61,562 bases of DNA from NCBI GenBank assembly GCA_937899645.1, contig CALCCD010000059.1:1-61562 (forward strand), given 5' to 3'. Every line of letters begins with the position of its first letter. Positions within the stretch are counted from its first letter, which is position 1. A program made the translations under genes and the position numbers. Positions 53,894-61,562 of this stretch are shown in pieces. Origin of the DNA: an uncultured cyanobacterium (lineage in GTDB: Bacteria; Cyanobacteriota; Cyanobacteriia; Cyanobacteriales; Geitlerinemataceae). Under the pieces are notes generated by a model. The model saw only the letters and a program-made list of their open reading frames with translations, did not search any database and was not told the origin of the DNA.

Positions 53894-54095
53894 TAGCGTC
53901 TTAAGAACTTAAAAGAAAATCAAGCCGCCACCTATAGCGTGCGATAAGATCGCAGGCCCGACGATCGCGGTGTGCTTCTCGGCGATCGCGATCTTTGAGA
54001 ACAATCGCGATCGCAATCTGACGTTTCACTACAAAACCCCACATCTAGCGCTTCACTTCTCTAGAATTGCATTCACACGCTATTGATAGCGTGTG
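53894..54095 (+). repeat. Iteron-like TAGCG repeats and palindrome before the CyRepA1 gene
   Basis: TAGCG occurs at 53894, 53935, 54046 and 54087. The first and third are within ACATCTAGCG and the second and fourth within ATAGCGTG, so a two-word module with the same 41-base spacing appears twice. The fourth word is also half of a perfect palindrome, CACACGCTAT-TG-ATAGCGTGTG (54074-54095). The layout resembles plasmid replication-control or origin repeats. Confidence 0.6.
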
Positions 54096-54129
54096 TCTGG
54101 ATCGCAGTTCCCGATTTGGGAGGTACTGG

Positions 54130-57100
54130 GTGAACTACTTAGACGAGTGGAAACAGAGCGGCGTCGATCCCGAACTCGTGCGGCTGAATGTCGTCGCGCT
54201 GGACGGGACGGAGGCGTACGACTATCTGTGCTACTCGGATAAGCTGCCCCGCCGCAACGACGGTCGCTTGGCGAGCGGCATGCTGAAGCGCTACGCCCAC
54301 GTCGAGTCCGGCGGCTGGTGGTGTTCCGGCACGAACCTGCTGACGGGAACCGACGACCTTTGGGGCTGCTTTAAGCCAGAGCTGCCGCGTGTGGCGGGCG
54401 ATCGCGACAAGCCGATCAAGTACGAACATCCACCCAAGGTCGAAACCGGTGTCTTCGCGCTGCGCGTGCCCGTCGCGATTTGGCGGCGCATCGCCGAGCG
54501 AGCGGAGCTGAAATTTGACGAGAACTGGATCGATCGATCGCGCCATGATTTCGGCTTCTGGGCGTGGCTGCGGGAAACCCCGAGCGTGCCGGTCTGCATC
54601 ACTGAAGGCGCGAAAAAAGCCGGGGCGCTGCTAAGTGCGGGTTACGCCGCGATCGGCCTGCCGGGAATCGACAACGGCATTCGGACACCGCGCGACGAGA
54701 ACGGACGCCGCACCGGCACGTCCCATACGATCGCGCAGATTTCAGCGCTGACCCAGAACGCGCGCCCGGTTTACATCGCCTTCGATCGCGACACCAAGCC
54801 GAACACTGTCCGCGCTGTCAATAGCGCAATTCGGCGGTTGGGCTACCTGATTTCGCAGTCGGGCTCGCCCGTGCGCGTCGTCACCTGGTCGCCGGAAGAC
54901 GGCAAGGGTGCGGACGATCTGATCGTGGCGCGGGGAACCGAAGCTTTCGATCGCGCCTTCACCGACGCACTCAGCCTCGACACCTGGAAAGCCCAGCTGC
55001 TCGGCCAGCTCAGCTACCGCGTCGATATTGACCTAGAGGCGCGCTACCTGCCCGCCGCGATCGCGATTCCCGACGATGCCCGCCTGGTGGCGATCCAGTC
55101 GCCGAAGGGAACCGGCAAAACCGAGGCGATCGGCCAGTGGGTGCAGCAGGCGATCGCGCGGGGTCAGCGTGTCTTGGTCGTCGGCCACCGCGTCCAGCTC
55201 GTCGAGGCGCTGTGTCGGCGCTTCGGGTTGCCTTACGTCACGGAGATCGAGGATTTGCGACAGGTCGGCAATGGCTACGGCCTCTGCATCGACTCGCTCC
55301 ACGGCACGTCTCAAGCAAAATTCCGCGTGGAGGACTGGCGCGACGCGATCGTGATTTTCGACGAGGTCGAGCAAGTCCTCTGGCACGCGCTGAACTCGGA
55401 AACCTGTCGCGGGCGGCGTGTCGAAGTCCTGGAAACGCTGAAGCGGCTGATGCACGTCACCCTCGGAGCCGCTGGCCGGATCTACGCCGCCGATGCCGAT
55501 CTGAGCGATACGTCGCTGGACTATCTGCTGGCGCTGTCTGGGGTCGATCGCGAGCCATTCGCGATTCGCAACCGCTGGAAGCCCACCACCCCCTGGCAGA
55601 TTTCCCACTACACGGACTCGACGCCAAAGCGCATCTTCCGCGACCTGGAAGCTCATATCGCCGCTGGGGGACGCCCGTTCGTTTGCCTCTCGGCGCAGAA
55701 GCTGAAAAGCAAGTGGAGCACCACGACGATCGCAGCCTACCTGCAAGAAAAATTTCCCGATCGCAAGCTGCTCCGCATCGACTCCGAGTCCGTTTCCGAC
55801 ACCGATCACCCGGCTTTCGGCTGCACCCACGACCTCAACCGTCGCCTCGCCGACTACGATATCGTCCTAGCGAGCCCTTCAATTGAGACCGGCATCAGCA
55901 TCGACCTGCGCGGCCACTTTACGTCGGTGTGGGCGATCGCCCAGGGCATCCAAACCGAAAACAGCGTCCGCCAATCCCTCAGCCGTCTGCGCGAACCCGT
56001 GCCGCGCTACCTATGGGCCGCGCCTTACGGCTTTAATAAAGTCGGCAATGGCTCGGACTCGATCCCGGCGCTGCTGGGTTCCAGCCAAAAGCTGACGCAG
56101 CTCAATATCCGGCTGCTACAACAGAGCGACTTTAGCGGCTTCGAGGATTTCGACGCGGGCTTCCAGGCGGAATCCTTGCAGTGCTGGGCGAAGTTCGCCG
56201 TGCGCTTCAACGCCACGATGAGCGGCTACCGCGAGGCGATCGCCGCCGCCCTCACCGCCGAAGGCCACCGCATCACCGACCCGAAAAAAGCCAAATCTAC
56301 CTCCAAGTCCGCCGCTAAGTCCGCCGCCAACCCCGAACCCGCGCCGCCCGCCCTCGAGCTGATGGCGACGATCGCCGACGTACGCGAGCGCAACTACCTC
56401 GATCGGTGTCGCACGATCGCCCGCGCCCGCGACCTCAACCACCGCCAGTACCGCACCCTGCGTCAAACCCTGGTCAAATCCCAGGCCGATCGCCAAGTGC
56501 TGCGAAAATACGAACTCAAGCGCCGCTATGGCGTCCCCGTCACCATCGATCTGGTACGTAAAGACGACGACAATTGGCACGATAAACTGCGCCGCCACTA
56601 CTTCCTCACCGTGGGGCGCGAGTTCCTGGCCGATCGCGATCGGCGCGTGGCGCGGCAAATTTTGCAGCAGGGCGGCGGGCAGGTCTTCTCGCCGGACTTC
56701 AATAAATCCCAGCTCGGTGCGACGATCGGCATCTTGGACTTGCTCGGCCTGCCGACCCTGCTCGAGAACGTCGATCGCGAGCTGCGTAACAACGAGCCGG
56801 ACTTGCAGGCGATGAAGGTCAAAGCCCTCGAATCGCGCCCGCAAATCAAAGCCGCCACCGGCATCGGCCTCGCGAAAAACTCCACGCCAATGGTGGTGTT
56901 GCGCCGTCTGCTGGAGAAAATTGGCTACGGACTCAATCAATTGCGCTGGGAAGGCGGCCGCAAGCAGCGCCAGCGCGTCTACGCGATCGCGGTTCCCGAC
57001 GACGGGCGCACCTCGGTGTTCGAGCACTGGCTGACGACCGATCGGCGCTTCCCCGGCTGGTCGGAAAGCGCGATCGATGGCGTTATGCCGCCGGTATTGG

Positions 57101-57180
57101 CCGAGCGGTCGGGCGAGTCCGCCAACGTCGGCAGCTTCGAGCAGCTCTCGCTAGTGGATCTCGCCGATCCACCGACGTAG
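54130..57180 (+). CDS. CyRepA1-type replication protein (TOPRIM-like DUF3854 plus helicase)
   Basis: Resembles CyRepA1, the replication initiator known from Synechocystis plasmid pCC5.2. The GTG at 54130 is the likely start, with GGGAGG six bases before it; an upstream TTG frame from 54067 would run through a palindrome and is disfavoured. About 1,016 residues. The first part (about 155-225) holds the DUF3854/TOPRIM-like motifs VPVCITEGAKKAGALLSAGY and AFDRDTKPNT (DxD). The helicase follows: Walker A SPKGTGKTEAI (about 324-332), Walker B IFDEVEQ, motif VI-like QSLSRLR. It combines primase-like and helicase-like parts. It sits among chromosomal-looking genes. Confidence 0.85.
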   Translation: MNYLDEWKQSGVDPELVRLNVVALDGTEAYDYLCYSDKLPRRNDGRLASGMLKRYAHVESGGWWCSGTNLLTGTDDLWGCFKPELPRVAGDRDKPIKYEHPPKVETGVFALRVPVAIWRRIAERAELKFDENWIDRSRHDFGFWAWLRETPSVPVCITEGAKKAGALLSAGYAAIGLPGIDNGIRTPRDENGRRTGTSHTIAQISALTQNARPVYIAFDRDTKPNTVRAVNSAIRRLGYLISQSGSPVRVVTWSPEDGKGADDLIVARGTEAFDRAFTDALSLDTWKAQLLGQLSYRVDIDLEARYLPAAIAIPDDARLVAIQSPKGTGKTEAIGQWVQQAIARGQRVLVVGHRVQLVEALCRRFGLPYVTEIEDLRQVGNGYGLCIDSLHGTSQAKFRVEDWRDAIVIFDEVEQVLWHALNSETCRGRRVEVLETLKRLMHVTLGAAGRIYAADADLSDTSLDYLLALSGVDREPFAIRNRWKPTTPWQISHYTDSTPKRIFRDLEAHIAAGGRPFVCLSAQKLKSKWSTTTIAAYLQEKFPDRKLLRIDSESVSDTDHPAFGCTHDLNRRLADYDIVLASPSIETGISIDLRGHFTSVWAIAQGIQTENSVRQSLSRLREPVPRYLWAAPYGFNKVGNGSDSIPALLGSSQKLTQLNIRLLQQSDFSGFEDFDAGFQAESLQCWAKFAVRFNATMSGYREAIAAALTAEGHRITDPKKAKSTSKSAAKSAANPEPAPPALELMATIADVRERNYLDRCRTIARARDLNHRQYRTLRQTLVKSQADRQVLRKYELKRRYGVPVTIDLVRKDDDNWHDKLRRHYFLTVGREFLADRDRRVARQILQQGGGQVFSPDFNKSQLGATIGILDLLGLPTLLENVDRELRNNEPDLQAMKVKALESRPQIKAATGIGLAKNSTPMVVLRRLLEKIGYGLNQLRWEGGRKQRQRVYAIAVPDDGRTSVFEHWLTTDRRFPGWSESAIDGVMPPVLAERSGESANVGSFEQLSLVDLADPPT

Positions 57181-57291: not shown

Positions 57292-57708
57292 ATGGCCGAA
57301 CCGATCGATCGTCGCGAGCTGGCGAACTACAAAGATCTACTGGCGGACTACCAGCCAGGACTGGACGCGATCGCGACGCTGGAGCGCAACGGCGGCGACT
57401 GGGCTGCAGGCGTAGACGAGCTGTGGGCGGAGTCGAACGCTCCGGCGAGTTTCGGGCGCGGCCGCAAGCTGTGGGAAACGGTGCTGCGGGTGTTGCGGCA
57501 GGAGCTGTGCGGCGACGAGGGCTTTCGCGCGCAGGTGAAGGAATACAAAAAGCAGCCGAATAGCGCGACGCTGCTGACGGGGCTGGTCGTGTCGCTGACG
57601 GCGTCGGCGGGCTTGCCGATCGATCCGGCGATTTCGACGATCGTGGTGCTGTATATCGTGAAGTTCGGGCTCGATGTGTTTTGCGAGTACACCGAACCCA
57701 CGACATAA
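57292..57708 (+). CDS. Small membrane-associated protein of unknown function
   Basis: 138 residues from an ATG with GAGGGG shortly upstream. A charged helical N-terminal part (RRELANYKDLLADYQPGLDA) is followed near the C-terminus by one or two hydrophobic helices (TLLTGLVVSLTASAG and STIVVLYIVKFGLDVF). It does not match a family I know. It lies in the CyRepA1-to-CHAT segment and ends four bases before the stop of the convergent MNT-HEPN gene. A membrane-active effector or partner for the CHAT protein is possible but purely an inference from position. Confidence 0.6.
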   Translation: MAEPIDRRELANYKDLLADYQPGLDAIATLERNGGDWAAGVDELWAESNAPASFGRGRKLWETVLRVLRQELCGDEGFRAQVKEYKKQPNSATLLTGLVVSLTASAGLPIDPAISTIVVLYIVKFGLDVFCEYTEPTT

Positions 57709-57712
57709 TCCG

Positions 57713-58474
57713 CTAGCAAAATTCTCGAACGAGCGCCTCGATTTCGGGTAGCAGCGCCGATATATCGCGATTGATGATGTCCGAAACAACGGCCAGATTC
57801 ACGTTGTCGTATTCGTGAATCAAGAAGTTGCGCGTTCCGGCGATTTGTTTCCACTGGATTCGATCGTAGCGATCGCGAAATTCCGGCGATAGGCGCTTCG
57901 TCGCTTCGCCCAGAATCGTGAGCTGGTACAGGATGGCAGAGTGACGCAGCTCGTCAGCTTCGAGGTCTGCTGCCGTCATGCCCCGCCCGTAGTTTCGGGC
58001 TTGCTTGGCCGCTTTCAAAATATCTAGGAGCGTTGCCCGATCGCGATCGTTGGGAATCGTCATGGCGGTTGGCGGCGTCGGGAGCAGTGCGGTTGGCGTT
58101 GTCGCGATGGCCGCAGGGTAGATCGTCCGAGCCGTACCGAAGATGTTGGCGCGGCGGATGTAATTGTCGCTGTGTTCGATATTCGATCGCATCACCACAT
58201 CCACGGCGCGGCCAATGCGATCGCCGAGATCTTGCTGCATTCCCAGCAAATCCAGCAGGCCGATCTGAGCCTCAGGCGCGAACACGACCAGGCAATCGAG
58301 GTCGCTATCGGGCCGAAAGTCGTCTCGCAAAATCGAGCCAAACAGCGCCAATTCCACGATCTGCCACCGTTCGCAGTAGCCTGCGATGTCGCTGGGTTTT
58401 AGCCCCACCCGATCGAGCGTCGCGATCGCGTCTGTTTCGCTCAGGCGAGCTAGCGAGAGCGTCGTATCTGCCAT
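57713..58474 (-). CDS. Fused nucleotidyltransferase (MNT) and HEPN protein
   Basis: 253 residues from the ATG at 58474, with GGAGG eight bases before it. The N-terminal half is a minimal nucleotidyltransferase: ALFGSILRDDFRPDSDLDCL is the GS-x-D-x-D signature. A Pro/Thr-rich linker (about 118-140) joins it to a DUF86 HEPN domain whose RNase motif reads RNFLIHEY (R-x4-H with the Tyr). In HepT-MntA toxin-antitoxin pairs the nucleotidyltransferase AMP-modifies the Tyr of the HEPN toxin; here both parts are in one chain. Convergent with the small membrane protein, divergent from the CHAT gene with only 65 bases between starts. Confidence 0.88.
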   Translation of the reverse strand: MADTTLSLARLSETDAIATLDRVGLKPSDIAGYCERWQIVELALFGSILRDDFRPDSDLDCLVVFAPEAQIGLLDLLGMQQDLGDRIGRAVDVVMRSNIEHSDNYIRRANIFGTARTIYPAAIATTPTALLPTPPTAMTIPNDRDRATLLDILKAAKQARNYGRGMTAADLEADELRHSAILYQLTILGEATKRLSPEFRDRYDRIQWKQIAGTRNFLIHEYDNVNLAVVSDIINRDISALLPEIEALVREFC

Positions 58475-58539
58475 CTCCGCAGCCTCCAAAACCGTATTGC
58501 TATCCTACAAATATTCACCCCCGATCGCTGACTGCCACT

Positions 58540-61500
58540 ATGCCCAGCATCCGCATCCGTGAAGTCGCGCCCACCGCAACGGACTTCGAGGCCGACCTGA
58601 CGATCGAGACCGATCGCCGTGCGACCTACCGCATCGCGATCCGCAACCCGTTCGAGCCCGAGATCGGGCGCGAGCTGGAGTGGTATTTCGAGCGGTGGCT
58701 GGAATGCCCGGATCTCGACAAGGTTCAGGCAGCCCGGGTGGCGGCAAGCGTGGAAACCTACGGGCGAAATCTGTTCGAGCAGGTGTTCGGCGATCGTAAG
58801 GTCTATGCGGATTATCGCGAGCTGCGGCGATCGCTGAAGCTAGCCGATGGGTCGGTGCCGATCGAGATCGAAGGATCGCCGGAGTTTCAGGCGCTGCACT
58901 GGGAAGCGCTACGAGACGAGGATTTGCCGGAGCCGCTGTCGGCGATCGCGACGATGGTACGGGTGGACTCGAAAAAGCGGGCGGGGACTCCGGCGGTGAT
59001 GTCGGAGTCGGGGGTGCTGAATTTGTTGGTGGTGACGGCGCGTCCCAGTGGCGGGCGGGATGTGGGCTATCGGACGATTTCGCGACCGCTGATCGAGGCG
59101 ATCGACGATAACGAGCTGCCAGTCAACGTAGAACTGGTGCGGCCGGGGACGTGGGAGGCGCTCGATCGCCAGCTTCAGGAGCGGGGCGCGGGCTACTATC
59201 ACGCGATTCATTTCGATTTACACGGGTCGGTGTTGACCTATGACCAGGCGAAGGCGCTGCTGGAGGAGAAGTCGCCAGTATCGCGCCATACGTTTAAGCG
59301 GGGCTACGGGTTGCAAGATCTCAAGCCCTTTGAGGGGGCGCGGGGCTTTTTGAGTTTTGAGGGCGATCGGGTCGGCACGTCGATTTTGGTGTCGGCGGAT
59401 GAGGTGGCGACGTTGCTGATGGATAAGGGGATTCCCCTGTGTATTCTCAATGCCTGTCAGTCGGCGAAGCAGTTGCGGCGGGACGCCAGCGATGGCGACG
59501 ATAAACCGGCGGGGGAGACGAGTTTGGGGGCGCGGTTGTTGTCGGCGGGGATGCAGGCGATCGTGGCGATGGGCTATTCGGTGACGGTGGATGCGGCACG
59601 GGTGATGGTGACGGCGCTGTATGGGGCGCTGTTTGGCGGTAAGTCGGTGATGGAGGCGATTCGGCTGGGGCGGCGGGAGTTGTTGAACGATAAGGAGCGC
59701 ACGTCGGCGTGGTTTGGCAAGAAAATCGAGCTAGAGGATTGGCTGTTGCCAGTGGTGTATCAGGGCGCGACGGTGAATCTGGGGCTGCGGAAGCTGGACG
59801 CGCGCGAGAAGGCGGGGTTAATGCGCGATCGCGCCCGACGGTTTCGCTTCGAGCCGCCGACCTATGGGTTTATCGGGCGGGATACAGATATTCTGACGAT
59901 CGAGCGGCGGTTGCTGGCTCCGGACGATAACGCGCTGCTGCTTCAGGGGATGGGCGGCACGGGCAAGACGACGCTGTTGCGGTATTTGCGCGATTGGTGG
60001 CAGCGGACGGGGTTAATCGCGGACTCGTTTTATTTCGGCTACGACGAGAAGGGCTATACGCTGGCGCAGATTTTGTTCGCGATCGCGCAGCGGGTGTTAT
60101 CTGACGAGGAGCTGCGGGAGTTTCAGGCGTGCGACCTGGAAACGCAGCAGGTTTGGTTAGAGGATTCGCTACGATCGCAACGATACGCGCTGATATTGGA
60201 CAATTTGGAGTCGGTGACGGCGGTGGCGATGTCGGTGCCGAACGCGCTGTCGGAGGCGGAACAGGGGGCGATCGCGGCTTGGTTGCGGACGTTGGTGGGC
60301 GGCCAGACGTTGGTGGTGTTGGGATCGCGGGGGCGCGAGGCGTGGCTGTCGGAGGTGTATGGCAAAAATCACCTGACGTTGGCGGGGCTGGATCCGGCGG
60401 CGCGGTTGATTTTGGCGGAGCGGGTGTTGCAGCGGCAGGTGCGGGACGATCGCAAGATTGCGGCGATTCAGGCGGATGGGGATTTCAAGCAGTTGATGAA
60501 GCTGCTGGCGGGGTATCCGCTGGCGATGGAGGTGGTGCTGGGGAATTTGGGGCGGATGTCGGCGGGGGAGGTGTTGGCGGGGTTGGATGCGGCGGATGTG
60601 GATTTGGATCGGGCGGATGCGGCGGACAAGACGGAAAGCATTTTGCAGTGTATTGATTTTTCGTTTTGCGGGCTGTCGGAGTCGGCGCGGGAGCTGTTGG
60701 TGTGTTTGGCGCTGTTTTCGGGGTTTATTTACGTTGCCGAGGATGCTTTTGAGAATTTCGCGAAGGAGTTGGAATCGATCCCAGAATTGGCCGATCGCGT
60801 AGGGGCGCATGGCAATGCGCCCAACGATAATGCCGGGGAAACATCGGCTGGGCGCACTGCCGTGACGCCCCTACGGGAGCGGTTGGGGTTGGCGGTGCAG
60901 GAGGCGGTGGATTGGGGGCTGTTGTCGCCGATTTCAACCGAGTTGCCGCAACTATTGAAAATTCAGCCGACGTTGCCGTTTTTCTTGCGATCGAAGCTGG
61001 CGGGTTGGGAGGCGGCGGCGCGAGAGGGGCTGCGCACTGCGTTTAAGCAGCACTATTTGGGCTTGTCGAGGTCGTGCTGGAATTTGTTGCAGTCGAAGCA
61101 GGCGGACGAGCGACAGTTGGGGGTGTTTTTCGTGCGCCAGGAGTATGAAAACCTGGCGGCGGCGTTGCAGGTTTGCCTGGAGACTCAGGACAGGGCGCGA
61201 ATTTTCTTCTGTTTGTTCGATTATTTAAAGCTGAATCAGAGCTTTGCGGAAGCGTTGCCACTGTCAGAGCGAGTCTATGCAGCGCTGCAAGGCTATTCGG
61301 TTAAAAAGCGCCAGAACTTTGGCACCGATATCAGCATGACGCTCAGTCGGCTGGCGGGCTGTGCTTTGGAGCTGAAGGATTACGATCGCGCCAAAGCAGC
61401 CTATCTGGAGAATATCGAAGTCGATCGCAAACTCACCGGAGTGTCTGAGCAATGGAGAAACATCTCGATTGCGGGCACCTACCACCAGTTGGGAACAGTC

Positions 61501-61562
61501 GCCCAGGCGTTGCGAGAGTACGAAGAAGCGCGGCGCAACTATCAACAAGCCCTCGAAATCTT
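58540..61562 (+). CDS. CHAT protease - STAND NTPase - TPR protein (cut by the window end)
   Basis: Open from the ATG at 58540 to the window edge, at least 1,007 residues. The N-terminal CHAT (caspase-like) domain, about 160-330, has the catalytic pair in HFDLHG (His 228) and LNACQSA (Cys 306). A STAND NTPase follows with Walker A GMGGTGKTT at 470-478 and Walker B YALILDNLE. The end shows TPR-like helices (CALELKDYDRAKAAYLENIE, VAQALREYEEARRNY). This layout is known from regulated proteases in conflict and cell-death systems. A 78-base repeat is inserted in frame at codons 753-779. The neighbours are an MNT-HEPN fusion and a small membrane protein. Confidence 0.92.
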   Translation, partial: MPSIRIREVAPTATDFEADLTIETDRRATYRIAIRNPFEPEIGRELEWYFERWLECPDLDKVQAARVAASVETYGRNLFEQVFGDRKVYADYRELRRSLKLADGSVPIEIEGSPEFQALHWEALRDEDLPEPLSAIATMVRVDSKKRAGTPAVMSESGVLNLLVVTARPSGGRDVGYRTISRPLIEAIDDNELPVNVELVRPGTWEALDRQLQERGAGYYHAIHFDLHGSVLTYDQAKALLEEKSPVSRHTFKRGYGLQDLKPFEGARGFLSFEGDRVGTSILVSADEVATLLMDKGIPLCILNACQSAKQLRRDASDGDDKPAGETSLGARLLSAGMQAIVAMGYSVTVDAARVMVTALYGALFGGKSVMEAIRLGRRELLNDKERTSAWFGKKIELEDWLLPVVYQGATVNLGLRKLDAREKAGLMRDRARRFRFEPPTYGFIGRDTDILTIERRLLAPDDNALLLQGMGGTGKTTLLRYLRDWWQRTGLIADSFYFGYDEKGYTLAQILFAIAQRVLSDEELREFQACDLETQQVWLEDSLRSQRYALILDNLESVTAVAMSVPNALSEAEQGAIAAWLRTLVGGQTLVVLGSRGREAWLSEVYGKNHLTLAGLDPAARLILAERVLQRQVRDDRKIAAIQADGDFKQLMKLLAGYPLAMEVVLGNLGRMSAGEVLAGLDAADVDLDRADAADKTESILQCIDFSFCGLSESARELLVCLALFSGFIYVAEDAFENFAKELESIPELADRVGAHGNAPNDNAGETSAGRTAVTPLRERLGLAVQEAVDWGLLSPISTELPQLLKIQPTLPFFLRSKLAGWEAAAREGLRTAFKQHYLGLSRSCWNLLQSKQADERQLGVFFVRQEYENLAAALQVCLETQDRARIFFCLFDYLKLNQSFAEALPLSERVYAALQGYSVKKRQNFGTDISMTLSRLAGCALELKDYDRAKAAYLENIEVDRKLTGVSEQWRNISIAGTYHQLGTVAQALREYEEARRNYQQALEI
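60798..60875 (+). repeat. 78-bp palindromic element in frame within the CHAT-STAND gene
   Basis: The element starts CGTAGGGGCG and ends CGCCCCTACG. Each end is itself a small palindrome (GGCGCATGGCAATGCGCC; GGGCGCACTGCCGTGACGCC). It is exactly 26 codons long and adds a stretch around VGAHGNAPNDNAGE to the protein without a stop. Its arm resembles the terminator stems at 10955 and 38651. Confidence 0.85.

Follow-up and report, generated by a model that had tools for sequence, protein, structure and literature searches.

A GTAG-tagged REP dimer, probably an old in-frame insertion, in the winged-helix region of a cyanobacterial CHAT-NLR-like gene

Introduction

How does a palindromic repeat of a family lying mostly outside genes come to be translated as part of a protein, and did this happen recently? 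The question is raised by one locus in the draft genome of an uncultured cyanobacterium (G000; 4.55 Mb, 134 contigs), in a window, i.e., the whole stretch of DNA that was analysed, which is one entire contig of 61,562 nucleotides. A sequence-only reading of this DNA had noticed a palindromic repeat in frame in a CHAT-STAND protein and had proposed either a repeat that became protein-coding or an insertion of recent date that separates functional from non-functional alleles.

GTAG-tagged REPs are described as head-to-head dimers 20-100 bp apart, present in many copies and mostly extragenic, cyanobacteria included (Di Nocera et al. 2013, PMC3733652); for the intragenic ones, the same source indicates that over half of the inserts are dimers or groups coding for 20-30 residues. 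REP insertions are also reported inside cyanobacterial tnpA_REP genes of subclasses 2.4 and 2.8 (PMC6006769), and the Rickettsia palindromic elements are described as palindromic repeats that sit in frame within coding genes and are translated (PMC10969869, PMC3733652).

Results

Structure of the element

The host gene and the element comprise the following features (window coordinates):

58540..61560, + strand: host gene, with a CHAT peptidase-like domain (PF12770), an NB-ARC-like NTPase, a winged helix and TPR; cut by the contig end
60697..60930, + strand: winged-helix segment LVCLALFSGF..WGLLSP, 78 codons here
60799..60874, + strand: GTAG-tagged, REPIN-like REP dimer in head-to-head arrangement, 76 nt long, spanning codons 754-779 of the ORF that begins at 58540
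60799..60822, + strand: left REP arm GTAGGGGCGCATGGCAATGCGCCC, 24 nt; 8-bp hairpin with a GGCA loop; read as VGAHGNAP
60823..60849, + strand: variable middle of the REP dimer, 27 nt
60850..60874, + strand: right REP arm GGGCGCACTGCCGTGACGCCCCTAC, 25 nt; oriented opposite to the left arm

The ORF starting at 58540 stays open across the element up to the contig end; the window being a whole contig, the C-terminus of the host protein lies beyond it and the 3' end of the gene is missing. Folding of a 96-nt stretch of DNA around the element gave -40.4 kcal/mol versus -20.6 for shuffles (z -7.75), none of the 200 shuffles being as good, and in 100 shuffles of the window the left arm was never present, even with 3 mismatches allowed, so that a chance palindrome is ruled out. 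The single Rfam match fell far under its gathering score, and a known Rfam RNA was rejected. The initial observation is thus confirmed by folding, shuffles and open frame; the span first given, 60798-60875, contains the element plus one complementary base at either end. As in the GTAG class, both outer ends carry the GTAG tag and two inverted hairpins lie 27 nt apart, within the 20-100 bp of the dimers of this class. The two arms differ from each other in sequence.

The repeat family inside and outside genes

With the element as BLAST query, at least 57 genomic places were obtained on the two strands together (best 40 of 81 candidates scored), and a covariance model built from 23 copies gave 77 matches at E up to 0.01, which merged into at least 41 distinct places, a minimum since the scoring covered 150 of the 4314 candidates. 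In the family alignment the arms are nearly invariant and the middles variable. The 31 complete copies measure 78 nt (13 copies), 77 nt (9) or 79 nt (2), with single copies of 71, 75, 76 (the window copy), 80, 97, 100 and 111 nt; GTAG opens 28 of them and CTAC closes 28. A length compatible with the reading frame is found in only 5/31, window copy included. Upstream of a second CHAT paralogue, about 140 bp from its matched stretch (C51:8915-10474, 29% identity), there is another copy of the dimer (G000:C51:8694-8771).

The position of the copies relative to genes was monitored by a codon-score scan, a crude gene finder that may miss weak genes, in which a locus was called coding when the score exceeded 5 on both sides within one spanning frame. 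The 52 loci given included 3 duplicates, leaving 49, with the tandem pair on contig C116 counted in two. Only two are coding on both sides, namely the host CHAT gene and a 916-aa ORF of contig C61 that holds a lone left arm; the other 47 fail to score as such, and the family is thus dispersed and mostly extragenic, as are GTAG-class REP dimers. This answers the genome-wide count of copies in and out of genes that the sequence-only reading had suggested. Long open frames over other copies (L004, 674 aa; L027, 570 aa; L025, 372 aa; L214, 458 aa) were rejected, the upstream codon score being negative, and L003 and L013, positive but weak on one side, were not counted as coding. In two congeneric genomes (G001 and G002), which together hold 103 match places, 1 of the 29 loci scanned is coding on both sides, and it is the homologous CHAT gene of G001. 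The C61 arm (L218, G000:C61:13258-13282) is read in the same frame as in the host gene, giving VGAHGNAP, in a linker of an ORF labelled TPR/glycosyltransferase-like from a reading of its sequence; this linker varies in length, and the G001 and G002 homologues lack the arm.

Insertion or ancestral coding sequence

The segment was measured from LVCLAxFSGF to WGLLSP in 80 homologue loci obtained by a profile scan, the closest homologues of the host protein in the named collection being cyanobacterial. It is exactly 52 aa long in 69 loci, 51 in two, 54 in one and 59 in one, and is incompletely covered in five (47, 34, 0, 0 and 0). Clearly longer segments were found, among the covering loci, only in the two congeners, with 76 residues in G001 (L117) and 82 in G002 (L118). 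The 52-residue form also occurs in loci of Chloroflexi, archaea and proteobacteria, and the outgroup G027 lacks the extra residues. Aligned with its closest homologues, as had been proposed, the protein thus carries residues that are absent outside the genus, and by this comparison of sequences the window REP dimer is an insertion into the host gene. The number of extra residues, put at about 26, holds for the window protein (78 versus 52); 24 codons correspond to the net gain of G001, and the two further residues, which lie upstream of the element, are counted as a separate change.

The sequence-only reading had also named what would speak for ancestral coding sequence, i.e., the same residues in a genome free of the repeat. 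G001 (82% complete) has these residues and one complete dimer was found in it (best 150 of 1504 candidates scored), but this genome also has 39 left-arm matches in all. The gene copy is therefore rejected as the sole REP of G001, although it is the sole complete asymmetric dimer among the candidates scored. The other arm matches of G001, together with the outgroups without the residues, indicate an old insertion instead of ancestral coding sequence. That the 26 residues are an old protein loop in which the palindrome is incidental would fit their retention at the site in two congeners and the lack of a further complete dimer of the same type among the G001 candidates scored; it is already contradicted by the uniform length of the segment across phyla and by the membership of this DNA in a family with at least 41 genomic places, and is extremely improbable. 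The sequence data therefore support the proposal that a repeat became protein-coding, from a family in which 47 of the 49 loci scored do not appear coding on both sides.

Age of the insertion and evolution of its parts

All three congeners (G000, G001 and G002) carry an insertion at the same site with the same outer ends. In G001, the same element lies at the same codon. In G002, the outer ends are kept but enclose a different middle; the frame is maintained across the insert, and most of both arms is lost. A second REP family, of the GAGCACTGAGCGGAGTCGAAGTGCGG type, there replaces the dimer middle in frame (L034 1551-1644, G002:C87); at E up to 0.01 it has 49 matches in G002 (the query itself counted), 33 in G000 and 11 in G001. 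The G002 gene is frameshifted some 15 codons past the insert, on a contig labelled with about 3x coverage, and this copy may be broken or misassembled. The covariance search for the window dimer family in 14 genomes gave matches in two, G000 and G001, in the latter at the host gene only, and none at E up to 0.001 in G002 and the 11 other genomes (150 candidates scored in each).

When G000 is compared with G001, all 49 nt of the arms agree, the middle of the insert differs at 7/27 nt and the remaining gene sequence at 22%. The arms depart from the rest of the gene (p 1e-5) and the middle does not (p 0.64); of 2792 windows with this shape taken from other parts of the gene, only 4 have both arms identical. 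These p-values are optimistic, since identical stretches as long as 52 nt occur elsewhere in the host gene and sites are not independent. As the middle has diverged like the rest of the gene, it appears as old as the gene split, with arms that have not drifted, which makes a moderate case for constraint on the arms. The recent insertion proposed at first is not in agreement with this divergence or with the filled site in 3/3 congeners, and a division between functional and non-functional alleles finds no support, all three congeners carrying the insertion at the same place. As far as these alignments indicate, the insertion predates the divergence of the three sampled congener alleles and is not recent.

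The identity of the arms raises the hypothesis that they are kept within the coding sequence as a DNA or RNA hairpin, through binding of RAYT or another protein or through mRNA folding. The contrast between arms and middle, and the scarcity of equally conserved windows, are in agreement with it. However, the long identical runs weaken this signal, amino-acid constraint or copying between REP arms would look alike, and most of both arms is gone in G002; we consider such a nucleic-acid function doubtful.

The shared insertion would be no sign of age if the already interrupted gene had been transferred horizontally among the congeners. One further feature bears on this point:

57292..57705, + strand: 138-aa ORF with no Pfam or NCBIfam match

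The DNA of this ORF, over 371-392 nt, also lies upstream of the homologous CHAT gene in G001 and in G002, and apart from it the compared gene neighbourhoods differ. A plasmid replication gene lying 1.4 kb upstream in the window would also fit a transfer. In contrast, the host gene has diverged between G000 and G001 (76% aa identity overall, dS about 0.5 by NG86 over residues 1-750), a second protein compared is similarly diverged (72% over 92 aa), and the middle of the insert is as diverged as the gene. The divergence of the gene being like that of the second protein, any transfer would not be recent, and transfer of the interrupted gene is an unlikely explanation; an old insertion is the reading that we keep.

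As to the surroundings, a fused nucleotidyltransferase-HepT-like ORF (MNT-HEPN; 57716-58489, - strand) separates the 138-aa ORF from the CHAT gene; in G001, the stretches matching these two are only about 130 bp apart. The replication protein is of the CyRepA1 family (54067-57177, + strand; 501 bits), and a plasmid may be involved, either as the contig itself or integrated within it.

The insert in the host protein

The part of the host protein coded by the insert includes GAHGNAPNDNAGETSAGR. In an AlphaFold2 model (72 sequences, mean pLDDT 88.8), the insert corresponds to model residues 321-346 and is placed between helices of the winged helix. The site is thus inside the winged-helix subdomain, so that its first description, between the STAND and TPR parts, is not strictly correct. 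The ten-residue blocks of the insert over 321-340 have a mean pLDDT of 59 and 49, versus 85-89 for the neighbouring blocks; a second low-confidence stretch, residues 251-270, is unrelated to the insert. Foldseek with modelled residues 434-1007 matched plant NLRs, a TPR-STAND protein, CED-4 and Apaf-1, and no known anti-phage system of PADLOC-DB matched at E up to 0.001. Residues 1-750 are under purifying selection between G000 and G001 (NG86 dN/dS 0.19).

The model suggests that the insert forms an unstructured loop of about 25 residues, at low confidence, and a tolerated loop is its most likely status, in a host protein that is probably still active. A selected, domesticated loop, which for example would tune activation from the winged helix, could also be envisaged, the replacement in G002 then reflecting selection for a loop and not for its sequence. 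The frame kept through the insert each time in the three congeners and the likeness of the host fold to NLR, Apaf-1 and CED-4 proteins are compatible with this. Yet the sequence changed in G002, the model gives the loop no confident structure, and frame-keeping is equally expected of a tolerated insert in a useful gene. A selected function of the loop is possible but unsupported, and we regard it as unlikely.

Mechanism of insertion

Single-strand insertion of the IS200/IS605 type is not known to leave a target duplication. In this family, tetranucleotides located 5' of the palindromes are described as guides (PMC8266576). The window element would be similar in having left no target duplication, the use of a 4-nt target being suggested here by length only:

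60803..60874 if the target gave GTAG (equivalently 60799-60870 if CTAC), + strand: putative net inserted DNA, 72 nt (76 versus 52 aa in G001, element length 76)

The element had been taken for an exact codon multiple. Its own 76 nt are not; the net gain in G001 is, with 24 codons, i.e., 72 nt or 76 - 4, and that of G002 is 30 codons, i.e., 90 nt or 94 - 4. Since both gains equal the element minus 4, a GTAG or CTAC would already have been present at the target and used without duplication, as suggested by the length of the host protein in two related alleles. At the level of the family, an abutting direct repeat of at least 2 nt is absent in 29/31 complete copies; one copy has 2 nt and one has 4, the flank of the latter being itself an inverted repeat. 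Mismatched flank pairs give such a repeat in 10% of cases, and the real copies give no more. The target-site duplication typical of a MITE of a DDE transposon was thus not found, 29 of the 31 copies showing no abutting repeat of this kind and the G001 gain of 72 nt being smaller than the element.

A REP-associated tyrosine transposase (RAYT, REP_Tyr_transpos) is present in the genome on contig C103 (NF047646, 174.9 bits for a cut-off of 80). The repeat on the flanks of this gene (L031 1447-1998, G000:C103) is GTAG-tagged and longer, GTAGGGTGTGTT ... AACACACCCTAC, and belongs to a different family from the short dimer; within the locus of this sole RAYT found, no BLAST match to the window dimer was obtained (at least 57 places, in a draft of 134 contigs). 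Flanked as it is by another GTAG repeat, this RAYT is at most a candidate mover of the short dimer. Y1 transposase matches were found in 13 of the 14 genomes of the family search, the exception being the 82% complete G001, so that a resident mover is not favored there.

Discussion

Taken together, these data are in agreement with the following scenario. The GTAG-class REP dimer, non-autonomous and thought to be moved by RAYT/TnpA_REP, would have entered the winged-helix region of a CHAT-NLR-like gene, without disrupting the frame, at a time when the alleles of the three sampled congeners had not yet split. The target would have supplied a GTAG or CTAC tetranucleotide, with no duplication left behind. 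The frame would have remained open and the insert become an unstructured, tolerated loop; in the G002 lineage, a second REP family would later have replaced the middle, the frame again being kept through the insert. We assign to this account as a whole, an old in-frame insertion that is now a loop, with a later swap of its middle in G002, a probability of roughly 0.87.

The window element resembles the GTAG REPs described by Di Nocera et al. (2013, PMC3733652) as a hairpin dimer with an intragenic copy in a multicopy, mostly extragenic family. It departs from them in its host, an NLR-like CHAT gene, whereas PMC3733652 emphasizes DNA repair genes, and in its two arms of different sequence, the comparison being one of structure and not of the GTAG-12/15/16 consensus sequences. 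The inverted REP doublet and the RAYT gene in the genome recall the REPINs (Bertels and Rainey 2011, PMC3116915), but the RAYT found here is not flanked by the window family. REP sequence within a coding gene of cyanobacteria is also the situation of PMC6006769, where the host described is a transposase gene; here it is an unrelated receptor-like gene. With the Rickettsia palindromic elements (PMC10969869), compared by description and not by sequence, the likeness is in-frame placement only, in an unrelated organism, and coding copies are here the exception (2/49 scored).

In-frame REP dimers are thus already known and rare, and the window case is a clear new example with a fuller history than usual. 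Our literature search found no report of the window element in the host gene; most subscription papers being outside the search, this absence is unproven. A 10-nt piece of the left arm also occurs in three unrelated papers. Less usual are the serial in-frame reuse of one site and the arms that remain identical between species while the middle diverged. They lead to a more speculative proposal, which we hold to be improbable: one winged-helix site would be a recurrent acceptor of different REP families, with the frame kept each time and the receptor remodelled loop by loop, and the arms would be conserved as nucleic acid while being translated.

The locus offers a clean example of the passage from a mobile palindrome to protein, with the empty ancestral state in homologues of several phyla and a later swap by a second element. 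This system would permit a test of the no-duplication, tetranucleotide-target rule for REP insertion, and of the tolerance of a winged helix to such inserts in a receptor.
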